DNA from: an uncultured Myxococcales bacterium
GTDB lineage: Bacteria; Myxococcota_A; UBA9042
Assembly (NCBI GenBank): GCA_903842345.1
Contig: CAIMLR010000027.1
Span: 124,001 to 188,000, forward strand
Direction: 5' to 3'
DNA: 64,000 nt
The notes under the pieces were generated by a model. It had not been told where the DNA came from and did not search any database. It saw only the letters and a list, made by a program, of their open reading frames with translations. Shown here piece after piece: positions 469 to 24,431 of this stretch. Positions within the stretch are counted from its first letter, which is position 1. Each line of letters opens with the position of its first letter. The translations under genes were made by a program, and so were the position numbers.

Positions 469-3400
469 ATGCGCAGTGCCTTGACGACAGGCTTTTGGCA
501 GCGGGGACGCGGCGCGATCGCGGCGATGAGTCTGCTGGCCCTGCTGGCGGTCGCGTGCGGCACGACGTCCACGACGGGCAACGGCGCGGATGTGGCGACG
601 GAAGACGCTGTGGGCACCGACGCGGCGGGCGACGACGCGGATCAGGACCTGCAGGCGACGGACAAGGATGCGACCGACAAAGCGGATGCGCCGGTTGATG
701 CGGATGCGGCGCCGGATGCGGGCGAGGATGCGGCTTCTGACGCGCTGGAAGACACGGCGCCGGACGGCACGGATCTGACCGACGCGACGGACGCGAGCGC
801 TGGAACGGACGCGATCGACGTGGCGGAGACCAAGGTCGATGTGCCGCCGGAGGACGCTGGCGGTATTGGCAAATCGATCCACACCACGGCGTGCACGGCC
901 AACATCGAGTGCGACATTCCCTGCGCCAAGGGCGCGTGCTTTCAGGGCAAATGCTCGTACACCGTCAAAGGCAACGTCTGTTTGACGCCGTACGGCGACG
1001 GTCAGGTCGCGTGCTACGGCGCCGGGCTCGCCGATGACGTCACGCCGTGCCTCGCGTGCGCGCCCAAGATCGCGACGGGCAAGCTCAGCGCCATCTCCGG
1101 CATCGCGGCGTTGGATGGTCCGGGCGCCGGCGTCTCGATCGAGGACACCGCCAAGGGTGGCATTGGCTGGAATTTCAGCAGCCAGCGCAGCGTTTCCGGC
1201 GGCGCGAGCCTCTACTTTGGCGACCCGACGAGCCTGACTTACGCCAACGGCAAGCACGTGGCCGGCAAAGCGACGCTGCCGCCGCTGCCCGTTCCCAAGA
1301 CCGCGGGCGTCAATCCGGCCGTGTCGTTCTGGCTGTGGATGGACACCGAGGCGTCCGCAGGCTTTGACATGCTGACCGTGAACGTGCTCGACGGCGCGGC
1401 GACCGTGCCGGTGTGGAATTCCGATGCGCAGCTCAGCACGACGCATGGCTCCTGGCAGCGGATTACGCTGGATGTCTCGGCGTGGGCGGGCCAGTCGCTG
1501 ACGCTGCAGTTCGCGTTTGACTCGATTGACGGCAGCGTCAACGCGTTTGAGGGCGTGTACATCGACGAAATCGAGGTCTCCACCGGCTGCTGCGCCGCGG
1601 CGTCCGATTGCGACGACGGCAATGCGTGTAGCCTGGACCTCTGCCAGCCCACCAGTGGCGGCACGCCCGCGTGCGTCCACACGCCCAAGGCGGACTGCTG
1701 CAACACGGTCGGCGACTGCAACGACGGCAAGCCCTGCACGTTGGACCTCTGCCCGGTCGCGGGCGGCGCATGCGCGCACAGCGCCAAGGTCGACTGCTGC
1801 ATGAGCGCGGGCGACTGCGACGACGGCGACGCGTGCACGATCGACGACTGCTCCGCGCCCGGCGGCGGCTGCAAGCACCAGAACACGTGCTGCAAGACCG
1901 ACGCCGAATGCAAGACCGCGGACTCGTGCTTCACCGGCAGCTGCAGCGCCGGCCAGTGCGTGTTCCAGAGCGTCTGCTGCCAGAAGGACACGGACTGCGA
2001 CGACTTCAACCCCTGCACCAAGGACGCCTGCTCCGCCGGCAAGTGCGCGTACACGGCGTCGACCGCGCCTGGTTGCTGCGCGCCGACCGTGCTGAGCACC
2101 GGCTTTGACGGCAGCGATGGCGGCTACACCATCACGCCGATGGCCGTCGGACCGACGTGGTACTTCAAGGACACCACCGACTCGATGGGCGGCAGCGGCG
2201 TGCTCGCATTCGGCGTCTCAGGTTCCAACACGTACACCGTTTCCGCGTCGACCAAGCCCAAGGCGACCGCCGTTTCGCCGTACATCACGTTGCTGTCCGG
2301 CAAGGAAGCCTCGTTCACGTTCAGCTACCGTTCGGACACCGTGTCGTCGGGCTTGTCCCTGCGCGTTGCGGCGGACATCGACGGCGTGGACACGACGTTG
2401 GTCACCAAGTCGGTCAATTCAGCGACGACGTCCTGGCAGACCGTGTCGATTGACCTGTCCTCGGTCGCCGGCAAGAGCTTCGCGCTGCGCTTTGAAGTGA
2501 CGCCGTCGTCGACGTTTGGCAGCCTGACCAACACGCAGCTCTACCTCGACAACATTCACGTCGACAGCACCTGCCAGCCCAAGAAGTGCGCCAACACCGC
2601 GGCGTGCACGCCGTCGTTCACGCTCGCCTGCAACACCGGCGTGTGCTCGGACGGCCAGTGCTCGTGGCCGTACAGCTGCTGCGCCACGGATGGCGACTGC
2701 AACGACAGCGTGCTGTGCACGACCGACAAGTGCATCAACCAGCATTGCCAATTCCAGCCGATCCCGAGCTGCTGCATGGGCGCCGGCGACTGCAACGACA
2801 GCAACCCGTGCACCGCCGACACCTGCCCCGGACCGGGCGCCAACTGCTCGTTTGCGCCGATCGGCGGCTGCTGCACGACAAACATCGGCTGCGACGACAA
2901 GAACGCGTGCACCATCGACACGTGCAGCAAGAACGTCTGCACCAACCAGAACACGTGCTGCAGCGCGGACGTGGACTGCTCGGACGGCGAGACCAAGTGC
3001 ACGATCGACACGTGCGTCAGCCAGAAGTGCGTCCACAAGGCGACCGGCGCGGCGGGCTGCTGCATTCCGGACATCTGGAGCAACGAGTTCGACGCCAACG
3101 ACGCCAAGGGCATGGTCTTCAGCAACAGCGCTGGCACGGCGCAGGGCTGGCAGCTGTGGCTGGGCAGCACGCAGGTCAAGTCCGGAACGGGCGTGCTGTA
3201 CTACGGCGACCCCAGCGCGGGCAACTTCAACTTTGGCGCGACGACGGGCTCGGCGAAGACGCCGCCCATCACCTTGCCGAGCAACGTGAACAGCAAGGTG
3301 ACGTTTGACCTGTTCATGGACACCGAACAGGGCCCGCCGTACGACGCGCTGCAGGTGAACGTCTACGTCGGCGGCGTGAAGACGCAGCTGTGGGACAAAA

Positions 3401-3570
3401 ACACCAATGGCTATTCCGTGGGCAGCTGGTCGGCGATTGCGATCGACCTGACGCCGTACATCGGCCAGGAAATCCAGTTGGAGTTCTACTTCAACACGGT
3501 CGACAGCGTCGGCAACAGCGGCTTTGGCGTCGCGGTCGACAATCTGCACTTCACCGCCGCGTGCCCGTAG
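469..3570 (+). CDS. Modular Cys-rich surface lipoprotein, paralogue 1 (three beta-sandwich modules)
   Basis: The start at ATG 469 is preferred: GGGAGAG lies just upstream and it gives a clean lipoprotein signal ending in LAVAC (Cys30), for a 1033-residue protein. The open frame extends further upstream but those residues are not signal-like. After the Cys comes an Asp/Ala/Thr-rich low-complexity linker (about 34-137). Next is a Cys-rich segment (139-203), then three beta-sandwich-like modules (about 208-374, 543-702, 869-1033) separated by long Cys-rich spacers. The spacers repeat a pattern like DCDDG..CT.D.C. Modules share SLYFGDP-like, FWLWMDTE-like and FEGVYIDEIEV-like signatures, reminiscent of MAM / 'choice-of-anchor' domains. 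Gly at +2 after the lipid Cys argues for outer-membrane placement. The function is unknown; adhesion or surface coating is a guess. Confidence 0.85.
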   Translation: MRSALTTGFWQRGRGAIAAMSLLALLAVACGTTSTTGNGADVATEDAVGTDAAGDDADQDLQATDKDATDKADAPVDADAAPDAGEDAASDALEDTAPDGTDLTDATDASAGTDAIDVAETKVDVPPEDAGGIGKSIHTTACTANIECDIPCAKGACFQGKCSYTVKGNVCLTPYGDGQVACYGAGLADDVTPCLACAPKIATGKLSAISGIAALDGPGAGVSIEDTAKGGIGWNFSSQRSVSGGASLYFGDPTSLTYANGKHVAGKATLPPLPVPKTAGVNPAVSFWLWMDTEASAGFDMLTVNVLDGAATVPVWNSDAQLSTTHGSWQRITLDVSAWAGQSLTLQFAFDSIDGSVNAFEGVYIDEIEVSTGCCAAASDCDDGNACSLDLCQPTSGGTPACVHTPKADCCNTVGDCNDGKPCTLDLCPVAGGACAHSAKVDCCMSAGDCDDGDACTIDDCSAPGGGCKHQNTCCKTDAECKTADSCFTGSCSAGQCVFQSVCCQKDTDCDDFNPCTKDACSAGKCAYTASTAPGCCAPTVLSTGFDGSDGGYTITPMAVGPTWYFKDTTDSMGGSGVLAFGVSGSNTYTVSASTKPKATAVSPYITLLSGKEASFTFSYRSDTVSSGLSLRVAADIDGVDTTLVTKSVNSATTSWQTVSIDLSSVAGKSFALRFEVTPSSTFGSLTNTQLYLDNIHVDSTCQPKKCANTAACTPSFTLACNTGVCSDGQCSWPYSCCATDGDCNDSVLCTTDKCINQHCQFQPIPSCCMGAGDCNDSNPCTADTCPGPGANCSFAPIGGCCTTNIGCDDKNACTIDTCSKNVCTNQNTCCSADVDCSDGETKCTIDTCVSQKCVHKATGAAGCCIPDIWSNEFDANDAKGMVFSNSAGTAQGWQLWLGSTQVKSGTGVLYYGDPSAGNFNFGATTGSAKTPPITLPSNVNSKVTFDLFMDTEQGPPYDALQVNVYVGGVKTQLWDKNTNGYSVGSWSAIAIDLTPYIGQEIQLEFYFNTVDSVGNSGFGVAVDNLHFTAACP

Positions 3571-3580
3571 GAAGACGACG

Positions 3581-5635
3581 ATGCACCTCGCCAAGCGATG
3601 GACTCCGGGCCTGACGATGCTGCTGCTGGCGGCATGCGGCCAGACCGTCGCGCCTGCGGAGCAGCCGGATGTCACCCTCGATGCCGCGGACGACGTGGCG
3701 ACCGATGAGATCCTCGACGATGCCGGTGACGATGGGACGGCGAGCGATGCACTCACCGACGTGGCGGTCGATGTGCCGCTGGACGCGACCGCGGACGTGG
3801 CGCCAGATGCGGCGGATGCCCCCGATGTGCCACCCGACGTGGGCCAATGCGCGATAAACGACGACTGCGCGGGCAAAATCAGCCTGTCGCCGTGCCAATT
3901 GCCGCAATGCATCGCCGGCGTTTGCGCCGCCATCAAGAATCCCGCCGCGTGCTGCCTGGACACCGACTGCGACGACGGCAACGAGTGCAACACCCACAAA
4001 TGCGACCAGTTGCAGCACAAATGCACAAACGTCGCGATCGCCAATTGCTGCTCGGGCAAGGTGCTGCTGCAAAACGCCAGTTTTGAATCCGGCCAGGACG
4101 GCTTTGTCGCCACCGACGGTCCGACCAACGGCAACGTCAGCTGGCAGCAGACCGCCTGGCGCGCGCACGGCGGCAAGAAGTCCCTGTATTTTGGCAACGC
4201 GTGCCACACGTATGACACCTCGATGACGCCCGCGGGCGCCTGCAAGCCGCTGCTGAGCGACACGCAGCCAGTGGCGACGACGCTGCTGTCCAAGACCTAC
4301 CTGCTGCCCAAGGACAAGAAGGCGCAGGCGCATTTCTGGTTGTGGCTGGATACCGAGCCGTCGTACGCCAAGACCATCCAGCCGGGCGTTTGCAATCCGC
4401 CGTGCAACGCGGCGTCGACGTGCATCCAGGTCGCGGGCGCGCCGGTGTGCGAGCCGGAAAAAGACGTGCTGTCCCTGCAAGTGCTGGCGCAGGATGCCCC
4501 GCCGGCGTCGGTGTTCTGGTCGACGCAGATCGGCAAGACCACGCTCGGCGATCCGCAAAATCCCAGCGGCTGGCGGCACATCGCGGTGGATCTGGCCTAC
4601 TGGCAGGGCAAGTCGATCCAGCTGGCGTGGCAGTTCAGCACCAAGACCAGCGCCAACAACAGCTACGAAGGCATTTACCTGGACGACGTGGTGATCGAGA
4701 CGATTTGCCCCGACCTCGGCAAGATCCTCTGCAGCGACAAGCAGGCGTGCGATGACGATGGCCTCGCGTGCACCGTGGACAGCTGCACCGGTTACAGCAA
4801 CGCGGTCGGCGCAGGCGTCTGCTTCCACGACGACCTCGCGGGCTGCTGCCTGGGCGACGCGGATTGCGACGACGGCAACAGTTGCACGGTGGACACGTGC
4901 GTGCAGAACGCGTGCAAATCGCAGCCCGACGCCGCGAAGCCCGGCTGCTGCCAGCCGGCGACTTTGCTATCGGACACGTTCACTGGCACGACCTTGACGG
5001 GCTGGAAGACCAACCAGTTGAATTCCGTCAACGTGGCGTGGCGCGCCAACCCCAAGGGCGGCAACGGCGGCGGCGGCAGCCTGTACTTTGGCAACGTGAC
5101 CTTCAGCAACTACGACGATCCCTCGCTGGAGGCCGGCCAGGGTCCGCATGGCGGAATTTGCGCCCAGCCGGTCCAACTCAAGGCGGGAACGAACTACAAG
5201 TTGTTGAAATTTGACCTGAACCTCGATACGGAATGGTCGGACGTGCCGGTCGCGCAGTACGTCAATCCGCCGATTCCGGGCAACTCCAAGCTGGACTGGT
5301 TCTCCGTGGAAATCTTCACCGGCGGCGTCTTCACGACGGTCTGGTCGTCGGACGCGATCCACGGCAGCACCCAGGGCGCGTGGCAGCCCATCACCATCGA
5401 CCTGGACGCCTGGGCCGGCAAGTCCATCCAGGTCTGCATGCGTTTTGACGCAGGCGACGGCACGCTGAACGACAAGCCGGGCGTCAACATCGACAACCTG
5501 AGCATCGGCGAAACGTGCCAGAAAGACGACTGCTACTGGGACGTCGACTGCGCCCAGAAGTCCTGCGCGACCTGCCAAGCGGCGGCGTGCAGCGCTGCGA
5601 AATGCGTGTGTCAGGCCGTCACCAACTGTCCTTGA
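3581..5635 (+). CDS. Modular Cys-rich surface lipoprotein, paralogue 2 (two beta-sandwich modules)
   Basis: This 684-residue protein starts at ATG 3581, 10 nt after the previous stop. The GGAAGACG ribosome site directly follows that stop codon, so the two genes are probably co-transcribed. The signal peptide ends LLLAAC (Cys19). An Asp/Ala/Val-rich linker (about 25-87) leads to a Cys-rich segment (89-160). A beta-sandwich module follows (about 160-376) with an internal Cys cluster, then a DCDDGNSCTVDTC-type spacer, a second module (462-646) and a Cys-rich tail ending CQAVTNCP. The layout copies paralogue 1 with one fewer module. No catalytic motif is visible. Confidence 0.85.
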   Translation: MHLAKRWTPGLTMLLLAACGQTVAPAEQPDVTLDAADDVATDEILDDAGDDGTASDALTDVAVDVPLDATADVAPDAADAPDVPPDVGQCAINDDCAGKISLSPCQLPQCIAGVCAAIKNPAACCLDTDCDDGNECNTHKCDQLQHKCTNVAIANCCSGKVLLQNASFESGQDGFVATDGPTNGNVSWQQTAWRAHGGKKSLYFGNACHTYDTSMTPAGACKPLLSDTQPVATTLLSKTYLLPKDKKAQAHFWLWLDTEPSYAKTIQPGVCNPPCNAASTCIQVAGAPVCEPEKDVLSLQVLAQDAPPASVFWSTQIGKTTLGDPQNPSGWRHIAVDLAYWQGKSIQLAWQFSTKTSANNSYEGIYLDDVVIETICPDLGKILCSDKQACDDDGLACTVDSCTGYSNAVGAGVCFHDDLAGCCLGDADCDDGNSCTVDTCVQNACKSQPDAAKPGCCQPATLLSDTFTGTTLTGWKTNQLNSVNVAWRANPKGGNGGGGSLYFGNVTFSNYDDPSLEAGQGPHGGICAQPVQLKAGTNYKLLKFDLNLDTEWSDVPVAQYVNPPIPGNSKLDWFSVEIFTGGVFTTVWSSDAIHGSTQGAWQPITIDLDAWAGKSIQVCMRFDAGDGTLNDKPGVNIDNLSIGETCQKDDCYWDVDCAQKSCATCQAAACSAAKCVCQAVTNCP

Positions 5636-5697
5636 TTGGCCGTCGCCGCCGTAGCCCCTGACTGGCAGATTTTGTAGCGTTTTTCCCGGCGGGAAGA

Positions 5698-5726
5698 TTG
5701 CGCTAGCCGTTGTCCGCGGGTACACT
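5698..5726 (+). promoter_or_regulatory. Promoter of the third modular lipoprotein gene
   Basis: TTGCGC (5698-5703), a 17-nt spacer and TACACT (5721-5726) form a good sigma70-like pair in the 162-nt gap after paralogue 2. Transcription would start near 5733, about 65 nt before the ATG at 5798. This suggests paralogue 3 can be expressed apart from the first two. Confidence 0.6.
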
Positions 5727-5797
5727 GGGGAGACGCGGTCGTGTCGACACAGGCATCTGGAGCGGTGTTGACCCCGGTCCGCGCAACGAGGGGCTCC

Positions 5798-8700
5798 ATG
5801 AATCGCTTTCCGACTGCGTCGCGCTGTCCAACCTCTATGCTTGAACTGGCGCAAATTCAGCGTCTTGTAGCACCTCTGGCGCTCGCGCTGCTGCTGGCGG
5901 CTTGCGGCACCAAGACCGCTGCATCCGACGACAGCGGGCCGACCGAAGGCAGCGACACAGCTGCCGACACGCCTGCGGAAGACATCCAGGACACCGCCTC
6001 GGACGACGTCGGCAGCGACGCCATCGGCACGGATGCCGTGGCGGATACGCCCAAAGACGTGCCCGACACCGAAACGGTCATCAAGCACGAATGCGAAATT
6101 GATTCGGATTGCTTCAGCAAGATCAACCCGATCTGCCAGACGATTTCCTGCGTGAACTACACGTGCACCGCGCCGGCCAAGAAAGACGGCGCCAACGTCT
6201 GCTGCACCGACGCGGATTGCGCCGAGCTCAGCTGCCAGACCGCCGCGTGCAACGTCTCCGCCGGTCAGTGCGAATACAAGCCGACGCCGAATTGCTGCGC
6301 CGACAAGAGCACCATCCTGCCGAAAGTGAAGTTTGAGTCCATCGGCAACCTGGAAGGCTTCAGCGGCGCCGTCAACACGACCGCGACCGGCTCGACCGTC
6401 GCGTGGCAGGTCTCCAACAAGCGCGCGCACACGGGCAAGTCCTCGCTTTACTTGGGCAACGAGTGCTACAACTACGACACGTCGGCGACCACCGCGACGT
6501 CCTGCCAGTCGACCGGCGCGGGCGCCAAGGTGACGGCCAAGCTCACTTCCCCGGAACTCGTCATCCCCAAGGACGCGAGCGGCAAGGTCAAGCCGGCGAT
6601 TCTGCACTACTGGTTGTGGCTGGACGCGGAGCCGGCCTTCCTCGCGGGCAACGCGGGTCTCGCGGGCACGTCGTGCACGTCTTGCGCGATCGATCAGGTG
6701 TGCGTGAACCTTGGCAACGGCGCCAAAGACGCCTGCCTGACGGAAAAAGACGTGCTGACGGTCTCCATCAACGGCGCGGCCGTCACGCCGACGCCGGTGT
6801 GGGCGTCGACCAAGATCGGCAAGACCACGGGCGGCCAGTGGGTCCACCGCGTCGTCAACCTCGCCGGCTTTGGCGCGTCTGCGACGGTCACCTGGCAATT
6901 CGCGACGCTGGACGGCGTCAACAACGGCTTTGAGGGTCTCTACTTGGACGACATCGTCGTCGAGACGCTCTGCGCGACCGACAGTTCCTCCTGCGACAAG
7001 GCCACGGCTTGCGCCAACGGCGACGGCAACCCGTGCGCCATCAACGCCTGCACGTTCTACGACAACGTCACGGACAAGGGCATCTGCTTTGCCGACCTCA
7101 CGCCGGGCTGCTGCGCGGGCGTTGCCGACTGCCAGGACGGCAACCTCTGCACCGTCGACGCCTGCCTGCAGGCCAACGGCGCGGCCACCGGCCTCTGCAG
7201 CAACGTCCCGGACGCCAAGAACCCGCAATGCTGCCTCCCGTCCAACCTGTTCACGGACGGCATGGAGAACGGGATTTCGGCGTGGAAGAACATCGGCAGC
7301 AACTCCACCGCCGTCTCCTGGCGCGTCAACCCGACCGGCGGCACGAGCGGCAGCAAGTCGCTGGTTTTCACGGACAGCACGTTCCAGAGTTTTGCCGATC
7401 CCAAGCTGCTGAATCAGGGTCCCAAGGGCACCATCTGCTCGCCGGAAGTGCAGCTGGGCTCCGGCACGCTGTACGACGTGGCGAGCTTCCAGGTCGCGCT
7501 GATCACGGAATGGTGCGGCCAACCGACGTACGGCAACCCGCCGGGTTCGCAGAAGCCGTGCACCATCAGCACCGACTGCACGGGCGGTGAGAGCTGCAAC
7601 ACCATCCTCGGCATCTGCACGTTGGCGCCCGCGCTCGACAAGCTGACCGTCACGTTCCAGACCGGCGGCCAGTACTGCGGCGCGAGCGAGTGCTCCAACA
7701 TCGTCAGCAACATCAAGAAGCCGCTCTGGTCGAGCGATGACATCAAGGGCTGCACGGACGGCAAGTACCTGGAAGTCAACGTCGCGCTGGACCAGTACGC
7801 CGGCAAGAAGGGCCGCGTCTGCTTCACCTTTGACGCGGGCGACCCGAGCGGCAACACGTTTGCCGGCCCGAGCATCGACGACTTCAAGGTCGACATCGCG
7901 TGCGAAAAGAAGCAGTGCACCAACGACGCGTTCTGCGACGCGCTGGGCCTCTGCAAGCCGACCGCCGAGGCGGGCATCTGCCAGGCCGACGGCCAATGCG
8001 GCTGCAAGTCCACCGGCAAGTGCGCGAAGGACCTCGATTGCGACGACAAGGACACCTGCACCGTGGACACCTGCGTGCAGGGCAAGTGCGACTCGGTGCT
8101 GACGGCGGGCTGCTGCTCGGAGAAGGCGCAAGTTACCAACGAGTCGTTTGAGAGCACCAAGGGCACGACGCTGCCGAACGGTTGGAGCTCGGCGTTCGCC
8201 ACGGACGCGGTCTCCGCCACCGGCGACCCGTACGACCAGACGATGCAGTGGCACATCTCCGCGGACAACTTCTTTGGCACGAGCCCGGACCTCTACTCGC
8301 TCTATTTTGGCAACACGTTGGGCAACTACGACGCCGGCTCGCAAAAAGTGCCGTACGGCCTGGCCAAGAGCGCGCCCGTGATGATTCCGCTCAACGGCAC
8401 GACCATCATCACGTTCCACCTGAACCTGTCGACTGAGTGGGACGCGCCTGCCGTGTTCGCCGTGCCGCAATACCAGTCGACCATCTTCGCGGTGGATCGT
8501 CTGCGCTTTGGCTTTGTCGACCCGAGCAACCCGACCAACATCACGTGGGCGTGGAGCTCGTACGACATTGGCGGCACGACCAACGGCCAGTGGGCGACGA
8601 TTTCCGTCAAGGCGCCCGCCGCGGTCGCCGGCAAGTCCATGCAGCTGGCGTGGGAATTCGACGCGGGCAACCCGAAGAACAACAACCACGTCGGTCCGTA

Positions 8701-9427
8701 CATCGACGGCATCAACATGTGGACGACCTGCACGCCGCCGATGTGCGTCACGGGCAGCGATTGCCAGCCGCCGACGCCAGACGCCTGCAAGTCGTACAAC
8801 TGCAAGTTTGACGAGCCGACCAAGGCGTTTAGCTGTGAGACGCCGTTCAAGTCCGGTCCGGGCTGCTGCCAGCCGACGTCCCCGCTGCCGTCCGTGACCT
8901 TTGAGAGCGCCCTGCTGTCGCCGATGGTGGGCTCCGCAACGCCCGGCGTCCTGACGAAGTGGAGCGCGGTGCCGCACAAGTACCTCAATGGCAAGTTTGA
9001 GTCCTACTTTGGCAATCCGGCCAAGTGGAACTACGACGATCCGGTCGCAGGCTGCGGTCCGGTCACGTCCGACTTTGACTCGCCGGTGCTCAAGATCGGC
9101 ACGAACGTCAAGCAAAGCGCGCAACTCCAGTTCGCGATCTACGCAGACATTGAACCGCCGAGCGGCACGTTCCAGACGGAGCACTTCAAGGTCATCGTCA
9201 AGACCGGCGCACAGTCCACGGTGATTTGGGACGCGACGGACCCGGTCTACGGCCTCAAGCCGAGCCAGTTCAAGACCAAGCAGAACATCACGCTGCCGCT
9301 CACCAAGTACCAGGGCCTCAACATCGTCGTCGAATTCCACTTCGATTCCGGTGATTGCAGCCTGAACGACAAGTTCGAAGGCGTCTTCCTCGACGACATC
9401 CAAGTCACCGAGCCCTGCACCCAGTAA
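5798..9427 (+). CDS. Modular Cys-rich surface lipoprotein, paralogue 3 (four beta-sandwich modules)
   Basis: ATG 5798 has an AGGGG ribosome site and gives 1209 residues with a lipobox LLLAAC (Cys36). An in-frame ATG at 5837 would give a more typical 23-residue signal and cannot be excluded. A Thr/Asp/Ala-rich linker follows, then four beta-sandwich modules at about 175-392, 481-700, 776-979 and 1031-1209. They are joined by Cys-rich spacers such as DCQDGNLCTVDAC. Modules contain SLYLGNECYNYD-like and FEGLYLDDIVVET-like signatures matching paralogues 1 and 2. It appears to be the expanded end member of a tandem family. The role is unknown; extracellular binding is inferred only from architecture. 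Confidence 0.85.
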   Translation: MNRFPTASRCPTSMLELAQIQRLVAPLALALLLAACGTKTAASDDSGPTEGSDTAADTPAEDIQDTASDDVGSDAIGTDAVADTPKDVPDTETVIKHECEIDSDCFSKINPICQTISCVNYTCTAPAKKDGANVCCTDADCAELSCQTAACNVSAGQCEYKPTPNCCADKSTILPKVKFESIGNLEGFSGAVNTTATGSTVAWQVSNKRAHTGKSSLYLGNECYNYDTSATTATSCQSTGAGAKVTAKLTSPELVIPKDASGKVKPAILHYWLWLDAEPAFLAGNAGLAGTSCTSCAIDQVCVNLGNGAKDACLTEKDVLTVSINGAAVTPTPVWASTKIGKTTGGQWVHRVVNLAGFGASATVTWQFATLDGVNNGFEGLYLDDIVVETLCATDSSSCDKATACANGDGNPCAINACTFYDNVTDKGICFADLTPGCCAGVADCQDGNLCTVDACLQANGAATGLCSNVPDAKNPQCCLPSNLFTDGMENGISAWKNIGSNSTAVSWRVNPTGGTSGSKSLVFTDSTFQSFADPKLLNQGPKGTICSPEVQLGSGTLYDVASFQVALITEWCGQPTYGNPPGSQKPCTISTDCTGGESCNTILGICTLAPALDKLTVTFQTGGQYCGASECSNIVSNIKKPLWSSDDIKGCTDGKYLEVNVALDQYAGKKGRVCFTFDAGDPSGNTFAGPSIDDFKVDIACEKKQCTNDAFCDALGLCKPTAEAGICQADGQCGCKSTGKCAKDLDCDDKDTCTVDTCVQGKCDSVLTAGCCSEKAQVTNESFESTKGTTLPNGWSSAFATDAVSATGDPYDQTMQWHISADNFFGTSPDLYSLYFGNTLGNYDAGSQKVPYGLAKSAPVMIPLNGTTIITFHLNLSTEWDAPAVFAVPQYQSTIFAVDRLRFGFVDPSNPTNITWAWSSYDIGGTTNGQWATISVKAPAAVAGKSMQLAWEFDAGNPKNNNHVGPYIDGINMWTTCTPPMCVTGSDCQPPTPDACKSYNCKFDEPTKAFSCETPFKSGPGCCQPTSPLPSVTFESALLSPMVGSATPGVLTKWSAVPHKYLNGKFESYFGNPAKWNYDDPVAGCGPVTSDFDSPVLKIGTNVKQSAQLQFAIYADIEPPSGTFQTEHFKVIVKTGAQSTVIWDATDPVYGLKPSQFKTKQNITLPLTKYQGLNIVVEFHFDSGDCSLNDKFEGVFLDDIQVTEPCTQ

Positions 9428-9481: not shown

Positions 9482-10420
9482 ATGCCCGCCCTGAGTGATC
9501 GCAGCTTCAATCCCAAAGCTTGGGGCAAGCTCGGTCTGTACGCCATCGGTCTCGTCATCCTCGCGATCCTCGTCTGGGCTTCATCGATCTTCTTTGAGAA
9601 GTTCGTGGAGAACCCGCGCCTGTTGGAAAAGCGGTTCCACGATCCCGTGGGTCGGGTGGGCATGACGTCCACGCGCATCGCGCATCTGGGCAAGGACGCG
9701 GTGCCAACGCTCGTGGGCGACATGGCGAGCAACGCGCCGGCGGAACGGTCCAAGTCCCTGGAGCTGCTGTCGGGCATTGACGATCCGCGCGTGGTGCCGA
9801 CGTTGAACGGCGCGCTCAAGGATCGCGACATCGGTGTGCGCTTGACGGCGCTCGCGGGACTGGGACGCACGGGCAAGCCGGAGGCGGCGGCGGCGCTGTG
9901 GCCATTGACCCAATCGGACGACGATTTGCTGCGGCTGCGGGCGATTGTGGCGCTGGGTCTTTGCGGCGGCGATGCCGACGTCGCCAAGCTTGTCGCCGCG
10001 GCGCTCGCGACAAACGGTCAGGAACGCGCGCTGTTCGCCTGGTCGGCAGGTCGCGTGCAGCGGCGGTTGCAGAGCCTCAAGCTGAACGCGGACAAGCCGG
10101 AGATCGCCGGATACGTGCCGCCCGCGCCCGAGTACACGAGCGACGAGCAGATTCACGCGCGGCAGGTCGATGTGGACGTGCTGACGGCGGACATCGATGC
10201 CGGCAAGGACATTGCCAGGAACGGCGTCAAGCTCAATGAACTGACCGACGTCGGCTTTGCCACGTGGAATCAGGGGCATCAAATCGCGATCCAGGTGCTG
10301 GCCGTGCGGGGTCCGGAGAAGTCGCTCGCGTCGGCTGGGGATGCGCTGCCGATGGAGCCGGTCAAGCCGACCGCGCAGAAATTGCAGCTGGACGAGAAGT
10401 CACCGCAGCCAGCGCCTTAG
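9482..10420 (+). CDS. Membrane-anchored HEAT-repeat protein
   Basis: A 312-residue protein with one N-terminal membrane helix (about residues 17-39) and a soluble region of helical repeats. Phrases such as RVVPTLNGALKDRDIGVRLTAL and LLRLRAIVALGLCGGDADVAKL are typical of HEAT / PBS-lyase-like repeats, which scaffold protein-protein contacts. The C-terminus is charged and carries no enzymatic motif. The gene sits between the lipoprotein cluster and a two-component system but has its own spacing on both sides. No partner can be named. Confidence 0.75.
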   Translation: MPALSDRSFNPKAWGKLGLYAIGLVILAILVWASSIFFEKFVENPRLLEKRFHDPVGRVGMTSTRIAHLGKDAVPTLVGDMASNAPAERSKSLELLSGIDDPRVVPTLNGALKDRDIGVRLTALAGLGRTGKPEAAAALWPLTQSDDDLLRLRAIVALGLCGGDADVAKLVAAALATNGQERALFAWSAGRVQRRLQSLKLNADKPEIAGYVPPAPEYTSDEQIHARQVDVDVLTADIDAGKDIARNGVKLNELTDVGFATWNQGHQIAIQVLAVRGPEKSLASAGDALPMEPVKPTAQKLQLDEKSPQPAP

Positions 10421-12431: not shown

Positions 12432-13310
12432 ATGAACAGCTCTGTCCTCCACGGCTGGACCCTCGACGTCGAAGACTGGTTCCACATCCTGGAATACGAC
12501 CGCGCGCCCGATCCGGCGGCATGGCGGCGTCAGGAGCGGCGGGTCCACATCGGCACGGAGCGCATGCTCGACGCGCTCGACATCCGCGGCGTCAAGGCGA
12601 CGTTTTTCGTGCTCGGCTGGGTCGCGGAAGTGGCCCCGGACCTCGTCGCTGAAATCGCCCGGCGCGGCCACGACGTGGGCTCGCACGGTCACATGCACCA
12701 ACTGCTCGAGCACCTGGGTCCGGACGCTTTTGCCCGCGATCTGGACCAGTCGCTCGCCGCGCTCCACCGCGCCACGCATCGCGACGTCACCTGTTTTCGC
12801 GCGCCGGGTTTCTCCCTGGGCCCGCGGCAAACGTGGGCGCTGCCGATTCTCGCGTCCCGCGGCATCACGCTGGATTCCTCGCTCTTTCTGGCGGATCGGG
12901 CCCATGGCGGCTATCCGCTCAATCGCACGCGGCCTTTTGACATCGTGCTGCCGGACGGAAAGACGATCCTGGAAGTCCCCGTCGTGCCGTTGCGCTTTGG
13001 CAGCCGCGATCTGGCGTTCTCGGGCGGCGGCTACCTGCGCCTCCTGCCCAAGGCGGCGCTACAGGCGGCGTTCGGCGCGTTTGACCTGCGCAAGACGCCC
13101 GCCGTGCTGTATCTGCATCCGCGCGAGCTCGACCCGGAACAGCCGCGCATGCCTTTGCCGCTGGTTCGTCGGTTCAAGTACTACGTCGGCCTGGACGGCG
13201 TGGCCGACAAAGTGTCGATGCTGCTCGACCAGTTTCGCTTCGGCACGCTGGCGCAAGTGGCCGCGCACACGCCGCGCGACCTGCCGCTCGTGCTGGACGG
13301 CATTGCCTGA
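12432..13310 (+). CDS. Polysaccharide deacetylase, DUF3473 / XrtA-associated type
   Basis: This 292-residue cytoplasm-sized enzyme of the NodB-homology family starts with the TLDVEDWFHI motif. That motif marks deacetylases found in PEP-CTERM/exosortase exopolysaccharide loci. Metal and catalytic signatures are present: the DVEDW aspartates, GSHGHMHQLL with its paired His, and FRAPGFSL. The C-terminal part (LYLHPRELDPEQPRMPL, VRRFKYYVGLDG) matches the DUF3473 extension. It would remove N-acetyl groups from an extracellular polysaccharide. No exosortase or PEP-CTERM gene lies in the window, so the pathway assignment comes from the family only. The start has a close -10 box instead of a ribosome site. 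Confidence 0.9.
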   Translation: MNSSVLHGWTLDVEDWFHILEYDRAPDPAAWRRQERRVHIGTERMLDALDIRGVKATFFVLGWVAEVAPDLVAEIARRGHDVGSHGHMHQLLEHLGPDAFARDLDQSLAALHRATHRDVTCFRAPGFSLGPRQTWALPILASRGITLDSSLFLADRAHGGYPLNRTRPFDIVLPDGKTILEVPVVPLRFGSRDLAFSGGGYLRLLPKAALQAAFGAFDLRKTPAVLYLHPRELDPEQPRMPLPLVRRFKYYVGLDGVADKVSMLLDQFRFGTLAQVAAHTPRDLPLVLDGIA

Positions 13311-20786: not shown

Positions 20787-23700
20787 ATGCAGGCTCACAC
20801 GCGATCGGCAATGGCACTTTGGACGGCTGCGCTGGCGGTCGCGGTTGGCGTTGCGGGCTGTGGCACGAATCAGAGCGCCGCCGGTTCGCCGTGCCGGGCG
20901 TCCAGTGAGTGCGCGACCGGCCTCTGCTACGTCAACCAGTGCCTCGTACCGGGCCGCGACGAGGACAACGACGGCCTGGACAATGCCACCGAACACGCGC
21001 TCGGCAGCAATCCGCTGGCGGCCGACACCGACAATGACGGCAAGCCCGATGGCGCAGAAGCCGGGCCGGATCCCGCGCATCCGCTGAACCAGGATGGCGA
21101 CGCACTTGCCGATCTGCTGGAATCCGCCGTTGCGGACGGCGATCGCGATTGCCTCGCCGATGAAGTGGACGCCCATAACGCCGTGCCGGAAACGGATAGC
21201 CACGTGCTCGCCGCGATCAGTTGTGGCCACGTCGGCGTCTGCGCCGCTGCCGGCAGCGCGATTGTCGCCACCTGCAACAACGACGTCCTGAGCTGCGACT
21301 ACCACGCCGTCCCCGGTTTTGCCGCCACGGAGAGCTGCGACGGCAAGGACAACGACTGCGACGGCGAGGTCGACGAGGGCTTTGCGTACGCGGGCGGCGG
21401 CATCGGCGAACCGTGCGACGGCGTTGGCGTGTGCGGCGCGGGCGTCGTCGAATGCCATGGCGCCAAGGCGGACTGCTCCAGCAACCCCGGGGCCAGCCAC
21501 GATCAGGCCAAGGCCGAGATGTGCAACGGCGTCGATGACAACTGCGATGGCTTCGTCGACGAAGGGTTCGCTTTCAACGGCCTGCCAGTCGGCTCCCCGT
21601 GCCTGGGCGTCGGCGAGTGCGGGCTCGGCGTCGTGGAGTGCGGGTCCGCCGGCGCGACGCGCTGCTCCAGCAACGTCGGCGGCAGCACGCCGCACGCCAA
21701 GGGTGAGAGCTGCAACGGGCTGGACGACGACTGCGATGGCGTCACCGACAACGGCATCGTCTGGCAGGCCATCCTGCTCGGCCAACCGTGCCAGACCACC
21801 GGCATTTGCGGCGGCGGCTCGGTCATCTGCGGCGGCGACGGCAAGGCGATTTGCTCGTCCGCGCCAGGGGTCACCGGCAGCAAGGCGCAGGCGGAGATCT
21901 GCAACAGCTTGGACGACAACTGCAATGGCCAGACCGATGAGGGCTTTGACTTCCAGGGCATCGCACTCGGCGCCCCGTGCCCGGCCGTGGGCGTCTGCGG
22001 CGCGGGATCGGTCGTCTGCAGCAGCAGCGGCGCCGCGACTTGCTCCACGCACGCTGGCGGACCGAGCGACCAGGCCAGCGCGGAGTCCTGCAACGGCCTG
22101 GACGACGACTGCGACGGCCAAACCGACGAACAATTGAGTTGGCAGGGCAGTTTGCTCGGCACCGCGTGCGACGGCACGGGCGTTTGCGGCATCGGCGTGG
22201 TGCAGTGCGGCAAGGCCGGTCAGGTGACGTGCTCGACCAACGCCGACGGCAGCCAGCCGCAGACCCAAGCCGAAAGCTGCAACGGCCTGGACGATGACTG
22301 CGACGGCCAGACCGATGACGACATCGCCGCGACGCCGACCCTCGCGTGCCCCGACGCGGGCGTCTGCGCGGGTGGCGAGCCCCTGCTTGTGTGTGCGGGC
22401 GGCGGCTGGCAGTGCACATTCGTCAACCCCGCTTTCCAGATCACAGAGACGCTGTGCGACGGGCTGGACAACGACTGCGACGGCCTCACGGACGAGCTGC
22501 TGCCGCTCACCTGGCTGGAGCCGACCGAAGCCTTTACGACGCGGCCGGTGGCGCGCACGGAACTGGCGTCGGCGGCCAACGCGGATGCGCTGTTCGTCGC
22601 TGGCGGGGTTGTCGATAGCGTGCTGCCGGGTGTGGGGACGCTGAGCTCCGCGGACGTCTGGCGGCTGGATCTGACGACGCACACGTGGAGTCTCGTCGCG
22701 CACAATCCGCTGCTGGCGCGCCGATCGGCAGGAGCGGTCCTTGTGCCGGTTGCCGATGGGGCGCCGCCGCAGCTGCTTCTGGTCGGTGGCCTGGATGCCG
22801 CCGGCGCGCCCGCCTCGCCGGTGCTGGTGGACGTCGGGTCGGGGACCGCCGCGGTGCCGGCCTGGAAGAACCAGCCGCAGCATCGTTTCTCGCCCGCGGT
22901 TGTGTGGCTGGGTCCGGCGGCGCAGGTGTGGCTGCTGGGCGGCACGGCGGCTGGCACTGGGGCAACCGCCCAACGCCTCGACGTGGCGACCGCGACGTGG
23001 ACGAGCGCCGTCCCGCAACCGGCAACTGCCGTGGGGCCGGTCGCGGCGTGCGCAAACGCGGCGGGAGATTTGTACGCGTATGGTCAGGCTGTGCTTGGCG
23101 AAGCGTTCTTTGCCGTTCTGCCGGCGGGCGCGGCGTCGTGGCAGGCGCTGCCCAGCGTGCCAGGCAAGACGGGCCAACCCGGCCGCCTGCTGTGCGACGT
23201 GGCTGCGGGCGAAGTCTGGCTGGTCGGCGGCGTGAGCCAGGGCGACACGCCCCAAGCGACCCGCAGATACGCTGTTGCGAGCCAAACCTGGACGACCCTC
23301 GCGCAGGGGCCGAGCTCAACACCCGGGCCGGGCGCGCAATCCTGGCCGGGGCCCATTTCACCCGCCGTCGCGGTCAAAGACGGCAAGATCCATGCCGCGC
23401 TGGGACAGACGCCCGATGGCCACGGCCTGCCGACGACTTGGGTCGGGCTTCCGGGACAGTGGACGGCCGCCGAGGAAGGACCCGAGCCAGTCGTCGGCGC
23501 GCGTCTGCTCGCGGTTGGCGGCGGCGTTGTGCGGGTTGGCGGCGCGGCCCTCCGGGTTGGTGCGGCGGCCTTTGGTGGCGCGGCGTGGCGGCATGCGGAT
23601 GGCACATGGACGGCGTGGCCCATGACGAGCACGACCGGCCGCGCGTTTGCCAACGTCATCCTGGAACCGGACGGTCAGGGCTTGCTGCAGTGGGGCGGCC

Positions 23701-24431
23701 TGTCCGCCGTGCCGGCTGCCGGCGATTGGCAAAATGCCCTGGAAACCCAGCCGCCCGCGCCGGGTGCCGAACACCTCGACCTGACGACGGGAACCTGGCA
23801 GACGGCCTCGCCCGCGCAGTTGCTGGCGCTGCCGCCCCTGCGGCCTGACGCTGCGATCGCGCCGGGGGCTTTGCCGGGACAGTGGTTCGCCCTGGGCAGC
23901 CAGCCGGAGACCGGCGTGGCGCAGCTCTGGCTCATCGATTTGAACAAGCTGGCCAAGACGCTGTTGTGGCAGGGCGCCGATCCATCCACCACGCCCATGA
24001 CCGGCGACGTTCCGGTTTGGCACCCCGGCAGCGCGCTGAGTTGGGATGGCGTCTGGGGCCGCGTCGTCTATGCCTGCGCCGGTTCGCCGAGTTCACTTTG
24101 GCACTACGATTTGGGTCCGTCTGAGGGCTGGACGCAGAGCGCCGCCAACCTCGGCCTGAGCGGTCGCCTGCAACTGCTGGGCGCCAAAGACGAGACGGAT
24201 CGCCTGCTGCTGGCGACGTCCCTGCAAAATCCGCTTACTGCGCGCCATGTTGCGCTTGACGTGGAGATCGCCGTGACGGCGCAGCCCGCGCCGCAGATGG
24301 CGATCTTTGGGATGCCCGCGGCGATCGCTGGCGCCAAGAGCGCGGTGACGTGGCTCGCCGAACCGGTTGATGCGACGGGCGTCCTGCGTTCCGTTTGGCT
24401 GAAATGGAGCCACGCTTGCCAGCCGCCCTAG
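20787..24431 (+). CDS. Lipoprotein with calcium-type repeats, seven MopE-like motifs and a kelch-like propeller
   Basis: 1214 residues. The signal peptide ends GVAGC (Cys25) with Gly at +2. Residues about 52-130 contain thrombospondin type-3-like Asp-rich repeats (DEDNDGLDNATEHALGSNP, DTDNDGKPDGAEAG) expected to bind calcium. Residues about 182-571 carry seven copies of the putative metal-binding motif C(D/N)GxD(D/N)(D/N)C(D/N)GxxDE, the first being CDGKDNDCDGEVDEGF. They are spaced about 55-60 residues apart and separated by Cys-containing spacers. The remainder (about 585-1211) is rich in FVAGG / LLVGG / WLLGG phrases with Trp, typical of kelch-type beta-propeller blades. MopE-family proteins in methanotrophs bind copper; the metal here is unknown. 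Confidence 0.85.
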   Translation: MQAHTRSAMALWTAALAVAVGVAGCGTNQSAAGSPCRASSECATGLCYVNQCLVPGRDEDNDGLDNATEHALGSNPLAADTDNDGKPDGAEAGPDPAHPLNQDGDALADLLESAVADGDRDCLADEVDAHNAVPETDSHVLAAISCGHVGVCAAAGSAIVATCNNDVLSCDYHAVPGFAATESCDGKDNDCDGEVDEGFAYAGGGIGEPCDGVGVCGAGVVECHGAKADCSSNPGASHDQAKAEMCNGVDDNCDGFVDEGFAFNGLPVGSPCLGVGECGLGVVECGSAGATRCSSNVGGSTPHAKGESCNGLDDDCDGVTDNGIVWQAILLGQPCQTTGICGGGSVICGGDGKAICSSAPGVTGSKAQAEICNSLDDNCNGQTDEGFDFQGIALGAPCPAVGVCGAGSVVCSSSGAATCSTHAGGPSDQASAESCNGLDDDCDGQTDEQLSWQGSLLGTACDGTGVCGIGVVQCGKAGQVTCSTNADGSQPQTQAESCNGLDDDCDGQTDDDIAATPTLACPDAGVCAGGEPLLVCAGGGWQCTFVNPAFQITETLCDGLDNDCDGLTDELLPLTWLEPTEAFTTRPVARTELASAANADALFVAGGVVDSVLPGVGTLSSADVWRLDLTTHTWSLVAHNPLLARRSAGAVLVPVADGAPPQLLLVGGLDAAGAPASPVLVDVGSGTAAVPAWKNQPQHRFSPAVVWLGPAAQVWLLGGTAAGTGATAQRLDVATATWTSAVPQPATAVGPVAACANAAGDLYAYGQAVLGEAFFAVLPAGAASWQALPSVPGKTGQPGRLLCDVAAGEVWLVGGVSQGDTPQATRRYAVASQTWTTLAQGPSSTPGPGAQSWPGPISPAVAVKDGKIHAALGQTPDGHGLPTTWVGLPGQWTAAEEGPEPVVGARLLAVGGGVVRVGGAALRVGAAAFGGAAWRHADGTWTAWPMTSTTGRAFANVILEPDGQGLLQWGGLSAVPAAGDWQNALETQPPAPGAEHLDLTTGTWQTASPAQLLALPPLRPDAAIAPGALPGQWFALGSQPETGVAQLWLIDLNKLAKTLLWQGADPSTTPMTGDVPVWHPGSALSWDGVWGRVVYACAGSPSSLWHYDLGPSEGWTQSAANLGLSGRLQLLGAKDETDRLLLATSLQNPLTARHVALDVEIAVTAQPAPQMAIFGMPAAIAGAKSAVTWLAEPVDATGVLRSVWLKWSHACQPP

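Follow-up and report, generated by a model that had tools for sequence, protein, structure and literature searches.

Several described systems resemble, in part, the locus studied here. The CTDC repeat was first known from slime moulds, and in the Dictyostelium proteins that carry it (PF00526) the repeats come after a PA14 domain. Reelin, which animals secrete and which also contains EGF and BNR/Asp-box elements, alternates jelly-roll domains with Cys-rich segments, and TraA of Myxococcus, which has a MYXO-CTERM tag, carries its lectin-like PA14 domain on a stalk rich in Cys (PMC3325183). We analysed a 64,000-nt stretch of DNA (hereafter, the window) in which three consecutive plus-strand genes at 469–9427 encode proteins P1, P2 and P3 (Table 1). 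An earlier note had described them as three consecutive modular lipoproteins with Cys-rich spacers, a description borne out by the lipobox patterns, the CxxDxC repeats and the module cuts, and had taken them for an evolving array. What was presumed to be a fast-evolving array turns out to be the opposite: module number, spacing and Cys residues are near-fixed across ten genera.

Table 1. Features of the lipoprotein locus, in window coordinates.
Feature	Position	Strand	Description
Promoter-like site before P0001	301..330	+	TTGTCT-N18-TACACT; genus conserved blocks, read from alignment
P0001 (P1)	469..3570	+	Predicted lipoprotein, 1033 aa; modules 1A, 1B, 1C with two Cys-rich spacers between them
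Module 1A	1075..1593	+	MAM / choice-of-anchor J jelly roll, by all-vs-all comparison
Spacer 1 of P0001	1588..2079	+	Cys-rich, 32 Cys, CTDC-type repeats; 161 aa by profile bounds
Module 1B	2074..2574	+	All-vs-all comparison; NF038128 match at residues 542-698
Spacer 2 of P0001	2572..3063	+	Cys-rich, 32 Cys; 161 aa by profile bounds
Module 1C	3058..3567	+	All-vs-all comparison
P0002 (P2)	3581..5635	+	Predicted lipoprotein, 684 aa; modules 2A, 2B and Cys-rich C-terminal tail
Module 2A	4046..4708	+	Carries Cys-rich insertion; tree partner 3A
Module 2B	4946..5518	+	AlphaFold model, pLDDT 92
Promoter-like site before P0003	5698..5726	+	TTGCGC-N17-TACACT; similar site across family gaps
Leader, promoter-like site to P0003 start	5727..5797	+	About 70 nt; conserved within genus, foldable
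P0003 (P3)	5798..9427	+	Predicted lipoprotein, 1209 aa; modules 3A, 3B, 3C, 3D
Module 3A	6293..6973	+	Carries Cys-rich insertion
Module 3B	7229..7903	+	Tree partner 2B
Module 3C	8111..8731	+	All-vs-all comparison
Module 3D	8864..9418	+	All-vs-all comparison
HEAT-repeat membrane protein	9482..10420	+	Conserved neighbour 3' of the trio

All three proteins follow a common plan—a lipobox, an acidic Asp/Ala linker, an N-terminal Cys-rich segment and then the modules. The lipobox pattern (signal peptide, lipobox, Cys) was recognised in each window protein, with Gly at position +2 after the lipobox Cys, and Asp and Glu account for 27–29% of the linkers. In the large majority of family orthologs, too, the lipobox has a residue other than Asp at +2 and is followed by an acidic linker, as scored by a script that left several ORFs uncalled and put the Cys at a wrong position in a few (e.g., L075 P0001), for which the Cys totals are unreliable. 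By this pattern, P1, P2 and P3 are predicted lipoproteins. The genes of P1 and P2 are spaced by 10 nt, and the P3 start was set at the ATG at 5798 on account of a GAGGGG ribosome-binding site and a ATGAATCGC start conserved in relatives.

When the nine modules were cut and compared all-against-all, each had at least one significant partner, with E-values of 1e-40 for the strongest pair (2A/3A), 1e-32 for 2B/3B and 1e-22 for 1A/1C; the weakest module, 1B, still paired with 1A (7e-10) and 1C (1e-12). Shuffled controls got no lower than 5e-4, which rules out chance or composition as the source of the likeness, and the proposed module numbers of 3, 2 and 4 reflect true homology. Sequence signatures said to recur nine times are present in all nine modules, albeit in degenerate form (FWLWMDTE, FSYRSDTV, FDLFMDTE, FQVALITE).

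Profile matches and structure prediction assign the modules to the MAM / choice-of-anchor J / InhA-like jelly-roll superfamily. The choice-of-anchor J model NF038128 scored 49.0 bits in P1 and 31.9 bits in P2 (cut-off 30), and the InhA-like MAM model PF20773 scored 53 and 33.5 bits, respectively (cut-off 26.9). P3 alone reached 25.2, under the curated cut-off, and is placed in the superfamily because its modules significantly match those of P1 and P2. A PDB sequence search with a 41-row module profile retrieved the MAM domain of immune inhibitor A (8.7e-6) and, more weakly, the gingipain cleaved-adhesin domains (0.003 and 0.03) and meprin (0.57), while P3 as a single sequence gave no PDB match. 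The AlphaFold model of module 2B (pLDDT 91.9) aligned with the meprin MAM domain (TM 0.64, Foldseek E 1.8e-7) and also with the K1/K3 adhesin domains of gingipain; together with the profile matches of P1 and P2, it supports the β-sandwich fold suggested for the modules. The model of full-length P2 was of low confidence (pLDDT 54) and was not used.

The spacers, in turn, hold CxxDxC repeats. The Pfam family Dicty_CTDC (PF00526) scored 37.9 bits in P1 and 18.6 in P3 relative to a gathering threshold of 27, with P2 not listed; we classify the spacers, by their repeat pattern, as Dicty_CTDC-type Cys repeats, with P1 alone above the Pfam threshold. As a separate observation, the Dicty_CTDC repeat is very largely expanded in this genome, where 150/150 scored stretches exceeded the cut-off; loose first-look counts gave about 1,150–2,400 candidates per genome of the family vs mostly no more than about 100 in genomes of the phylum that fall outside the class. 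A further CTDC-repeat protein with 5 stretches lies on L088 (2052–3932, minus strand), about 16–18 kb upstream of the window start. Two large lipoprotein-like proteins have MopE metal-binding motifs—one on L088 (4239–7604) with 10 stretches and one in the window (20811–24428) with 7 stretches plus Kelch repeats.

Conservation was assessed across the family of the source organism (f1, genomes G000–G021 in 10 genera, with our own genome as G000). The source genome falls in an uncultured group of Myxococcota, and its nearest named relatives are MAGs filed as Myxococcales, with isolate names that presumably denote lake samples. The trio is present throughout the family. Intact copies hold three modules in P1 (21/21 genomes), two in P2 (21/21) and four in P3 (19/19, counting the G018 copy, in which a contig end cuts the first module); incomplete copies occur in G009 (contig ends truncate P2 and P3), G019 (only part of P1) and G020 (fragments of P3 only). 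G008 (L068) is devoid of P3, with the HEAT gene directly after P2 on an uninterrupted contig, and this absence is a natural loss. The 3-2-4 layout is held down to about 36–50% identity, and the spacers are nearly constant as well: 161/161 aa in P1, with a scatter of a few residues by the same profile, 77–79 aa in P2 and 84–91 / 66–77 / 42–48 aa in P3, bar two copies in which the beginning of module C escaped the profile.

The cysteines are similarly constrained. Orthologs retain the window Cys at 0.99 (P1), 1.00 (P2) and 0.88 (P3), the corresponding values for non-Cys residue types being 0.12–0.87 (most roughly 0.3–0.8, with Trp highest). Even totals of mature Cys were found in 17/17 scored orthologs of P2, 14/18 of P1 and 12/17 of P3, and some of the odd totals may stem from misplaced lipobox calls. 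The Cys-rich tail of P2 (window 5519–5632) varies between genera, from 39 to about 165 aa, with the modules fixed; across tail lengths, P2 orthologs contain 44, 50, 56 or 68 mature Cys. As judged by sequence comparison, the 3-2-4 layout is fixed across the family while much other sequence has changed. Variable module number among related genomes is ruled out by the 3-2-4 layout of all intact family copies and the near-constant spacers—the idea of an evolving array thus fails at this level, and the expected variation in module number appears between families of the class, where related proteins have 2, 3 or 4 modules.

A tree of 92 modules, built by a quick method with SH-aLRT supports, sheds light on how this layout may have arisen. 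With ten labels (nine positions plus 'other'), the position labels need nine changes by joint count, which is the minimum, vs 65.5 with shuffled labels. Supported position groups were 1A (100), 3D (100), 3C (98), 2A (95), 2B (95), 3A (92) and 1C (87), whereas 1B was weak as a group (18) and 3B was unseparated from 2B. This clustering across genera indicates that the duplications predate the ten genera. In addition, cross-gene groups joined 2A with 3A (support 99) and 2B with 3B (100), pointing to a common A-B ancestor of P2 and P3. In three- and four-module proteins of other families, the first module falls beside 2A/3A (81) and the last beside 3D (92); given these relatives outside the family, with an A-type first and a D-type last module, we read P2, with moderate confidence, as a shortened copy of a P3-type gene that lacks C-D rather than the start of growth. 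The proposed growth by module duplication does not hold at family level, and P2 looks shortened, not growing. Among the other families, a P1-like gene precedes a P2/P3-like gene in G050 and G046. To judge from these sequences, module number changes at class scale only, between families.

The gene layout points to two transcription units. The pattern TTGC(G/A)N-N17-TA(N)ACT occurs in 11/14 of the gaps between P2 and P3 where shuffles expect 0.012, an optimistic expectation given that the pattern was picked after inspection of the gaps; it supports the suggestion that the third gene is under separate control. A generic sigma-70 scan and a terminator scan found nothing clearly above expectation. 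We read P1-P2 as a single operon, and P3 is very probably transcribed from a promoter of its own, which fits the separation of P1-P2 from P3, HEAT gene and regulator in G016, G018 and G021. The P3 leader was also considered as a wider regulatory RNA and rejected: convincing matches lay only upstream of P3 in the genus, no covariation was found in it, and there was no Rfam match within the window.

Across most of the family, the trio keeps its place between a gene for a TIGR04551-like protein and the HEAT, regulator and kinase genes. Conserved neighbours before the trio comprise a sigma-54 FHA activator, an 816-aa membrane protein with no family match and the TIGR04551-like protein (169.8 bits, under its cut-off of 300), a family on which our literature search found no paper; after the HEAT gene come an OmpR-type regulator, a histidine kinase and a DUF3473 polysaccharide deacetylase. 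The latter (window 12432–13310) is near the XrtA-system type, at 238 bits vs a cut-off of 276. The trio diverges faster than most of these neighbouring genes.

On balance, we lean towards reading P1–P3 as outer-membrane-anchored, probably surface-exposed lipoproteins, in which disulfide-locked rods of MAM-type modules would act as adhesins or receptors. The lipidated N terminus would anchor each protein in the outer membrane, probably facing outwards, and a flexible acidic tether would join the lipid anchor to a disulfide-locked rod of jelly-roll modules, held at fixed distances by the Cys-rich CTDC repeats. The modules, borne on presumably rigid stalks, could then bind glycans, proteins or one another. 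The domain families, lipoprotein signals, 3-2-4 layout, retained Cys and synteny can be read from the sequences; surface location, complete disulfide pairing, rigidity of the rod and a binding role are what we infer as most likely, localisation having been judged solely by the lipobox and the E. coli +2 rule. The suggested 'coat or adhesin' role is plausible, and what counts against the adhesin reading is the variety of roles, structural and enzyme-associated ones among them, in which MAM/jelly-roll folds are used.

The joint constraint on module counts, spacer lengths and Cys, together with the conserved synteny, could also reflect a hetero-complex or coat of fixed geometry, workable only with exactly 3, 2 and 4 modules. 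We consider this unlikely: the natural loss of P3 in G008 and the unlinked P1-P2 of three genomes make a strictly obligatory three-part complex improbable, the tail and Cys count of P2 vary between genera, and three separate proteins would each be frozen by ordinary purifying selection too. Rather unlikely, and tentative, is the related idea that the three proteins together build an undescribed apparatus of fixed geometry on the cell surface of this Myxococcota family, serving contact with other cells or prey, in which the disulfide skeleton and the exact module counts would space the binding sites. A periplasm-facing role as structural lipoproteins—spacers or tethers of the envelope—seems improbable; a lipobox and linker alone do not show surface exposure and the adjacent HEAT and two-component genes are of an envelope type, but adhesin/MAM-type folds and so high a content of Cys are characteristic of proteins outside the cell, and the faster divergence of the trio is often seen in surface proteins. 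Least probable is an array that gains and loses modules, for although nine homologous modules, the range of counts in other families of the class and the missing C-D of P2 recall one, no intact family copy departs from 3-2-4 and the position-grouped modules are older than the ten genera, so that it is refuted at family level and rare class-scale change alone remains.

The near-fixed module number, spacing and cysteines recommend the three proteins as candidates for a core function at the surface of this uncultured lineage, and they pose cleanly, in a natural setting, the question of why the number of repeats can be so strictly fixed. The parts are already known; the arrangement and its strict conservation were absent from the papers covered by a limited literature search, which also gave none on this gene set. 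The modules match the superfamily of NF038128 and PF20773 by sequence, directly or via siblings, and the fold of 2B is predicted with high confidence, but here 2–4 of them stand in tandem on a lipoprotein that brackets them with Cys, separates them by CTDC spacers and lacks a protease domain. The cleaved-adhesin domains K1/K3 of gingipain and the metazoan MAM domains of meprin, neuropilin-1 and RPTP-mu share the predicted fold (Foldseek E 1e-7 to 1e-5, TM about 0.5–0.65) at 10–18% identity in structural alignments, whereas the trio has no fused protease, kinase or phosphatase and is anchored differently. The P1 spacer repeats match the Pfam repeat of the Dictyostelium CTDC proteins, but are bacterial, lipid-anchored and interleaved with MAM-type modules. 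Reelin gives a weak fold match (3a7q, rank 46) and serves as an analogy only. The plan of TraA of Myxococcus xanthus is alike in setting a lectin-like β domain on a stalk of Cys-rich repeats, yet no Pfam match to PA14 was found in any of the three proteins, and inspection of their C termini revealed neither a MYXO-CTERM tag nor a C-terminal transmembrane segment. The trio instead has an N-terminal lipobox, several modules per protein and a C terminus formed by a module or a Cys tail, and we regard TraA as a functional analogue only.
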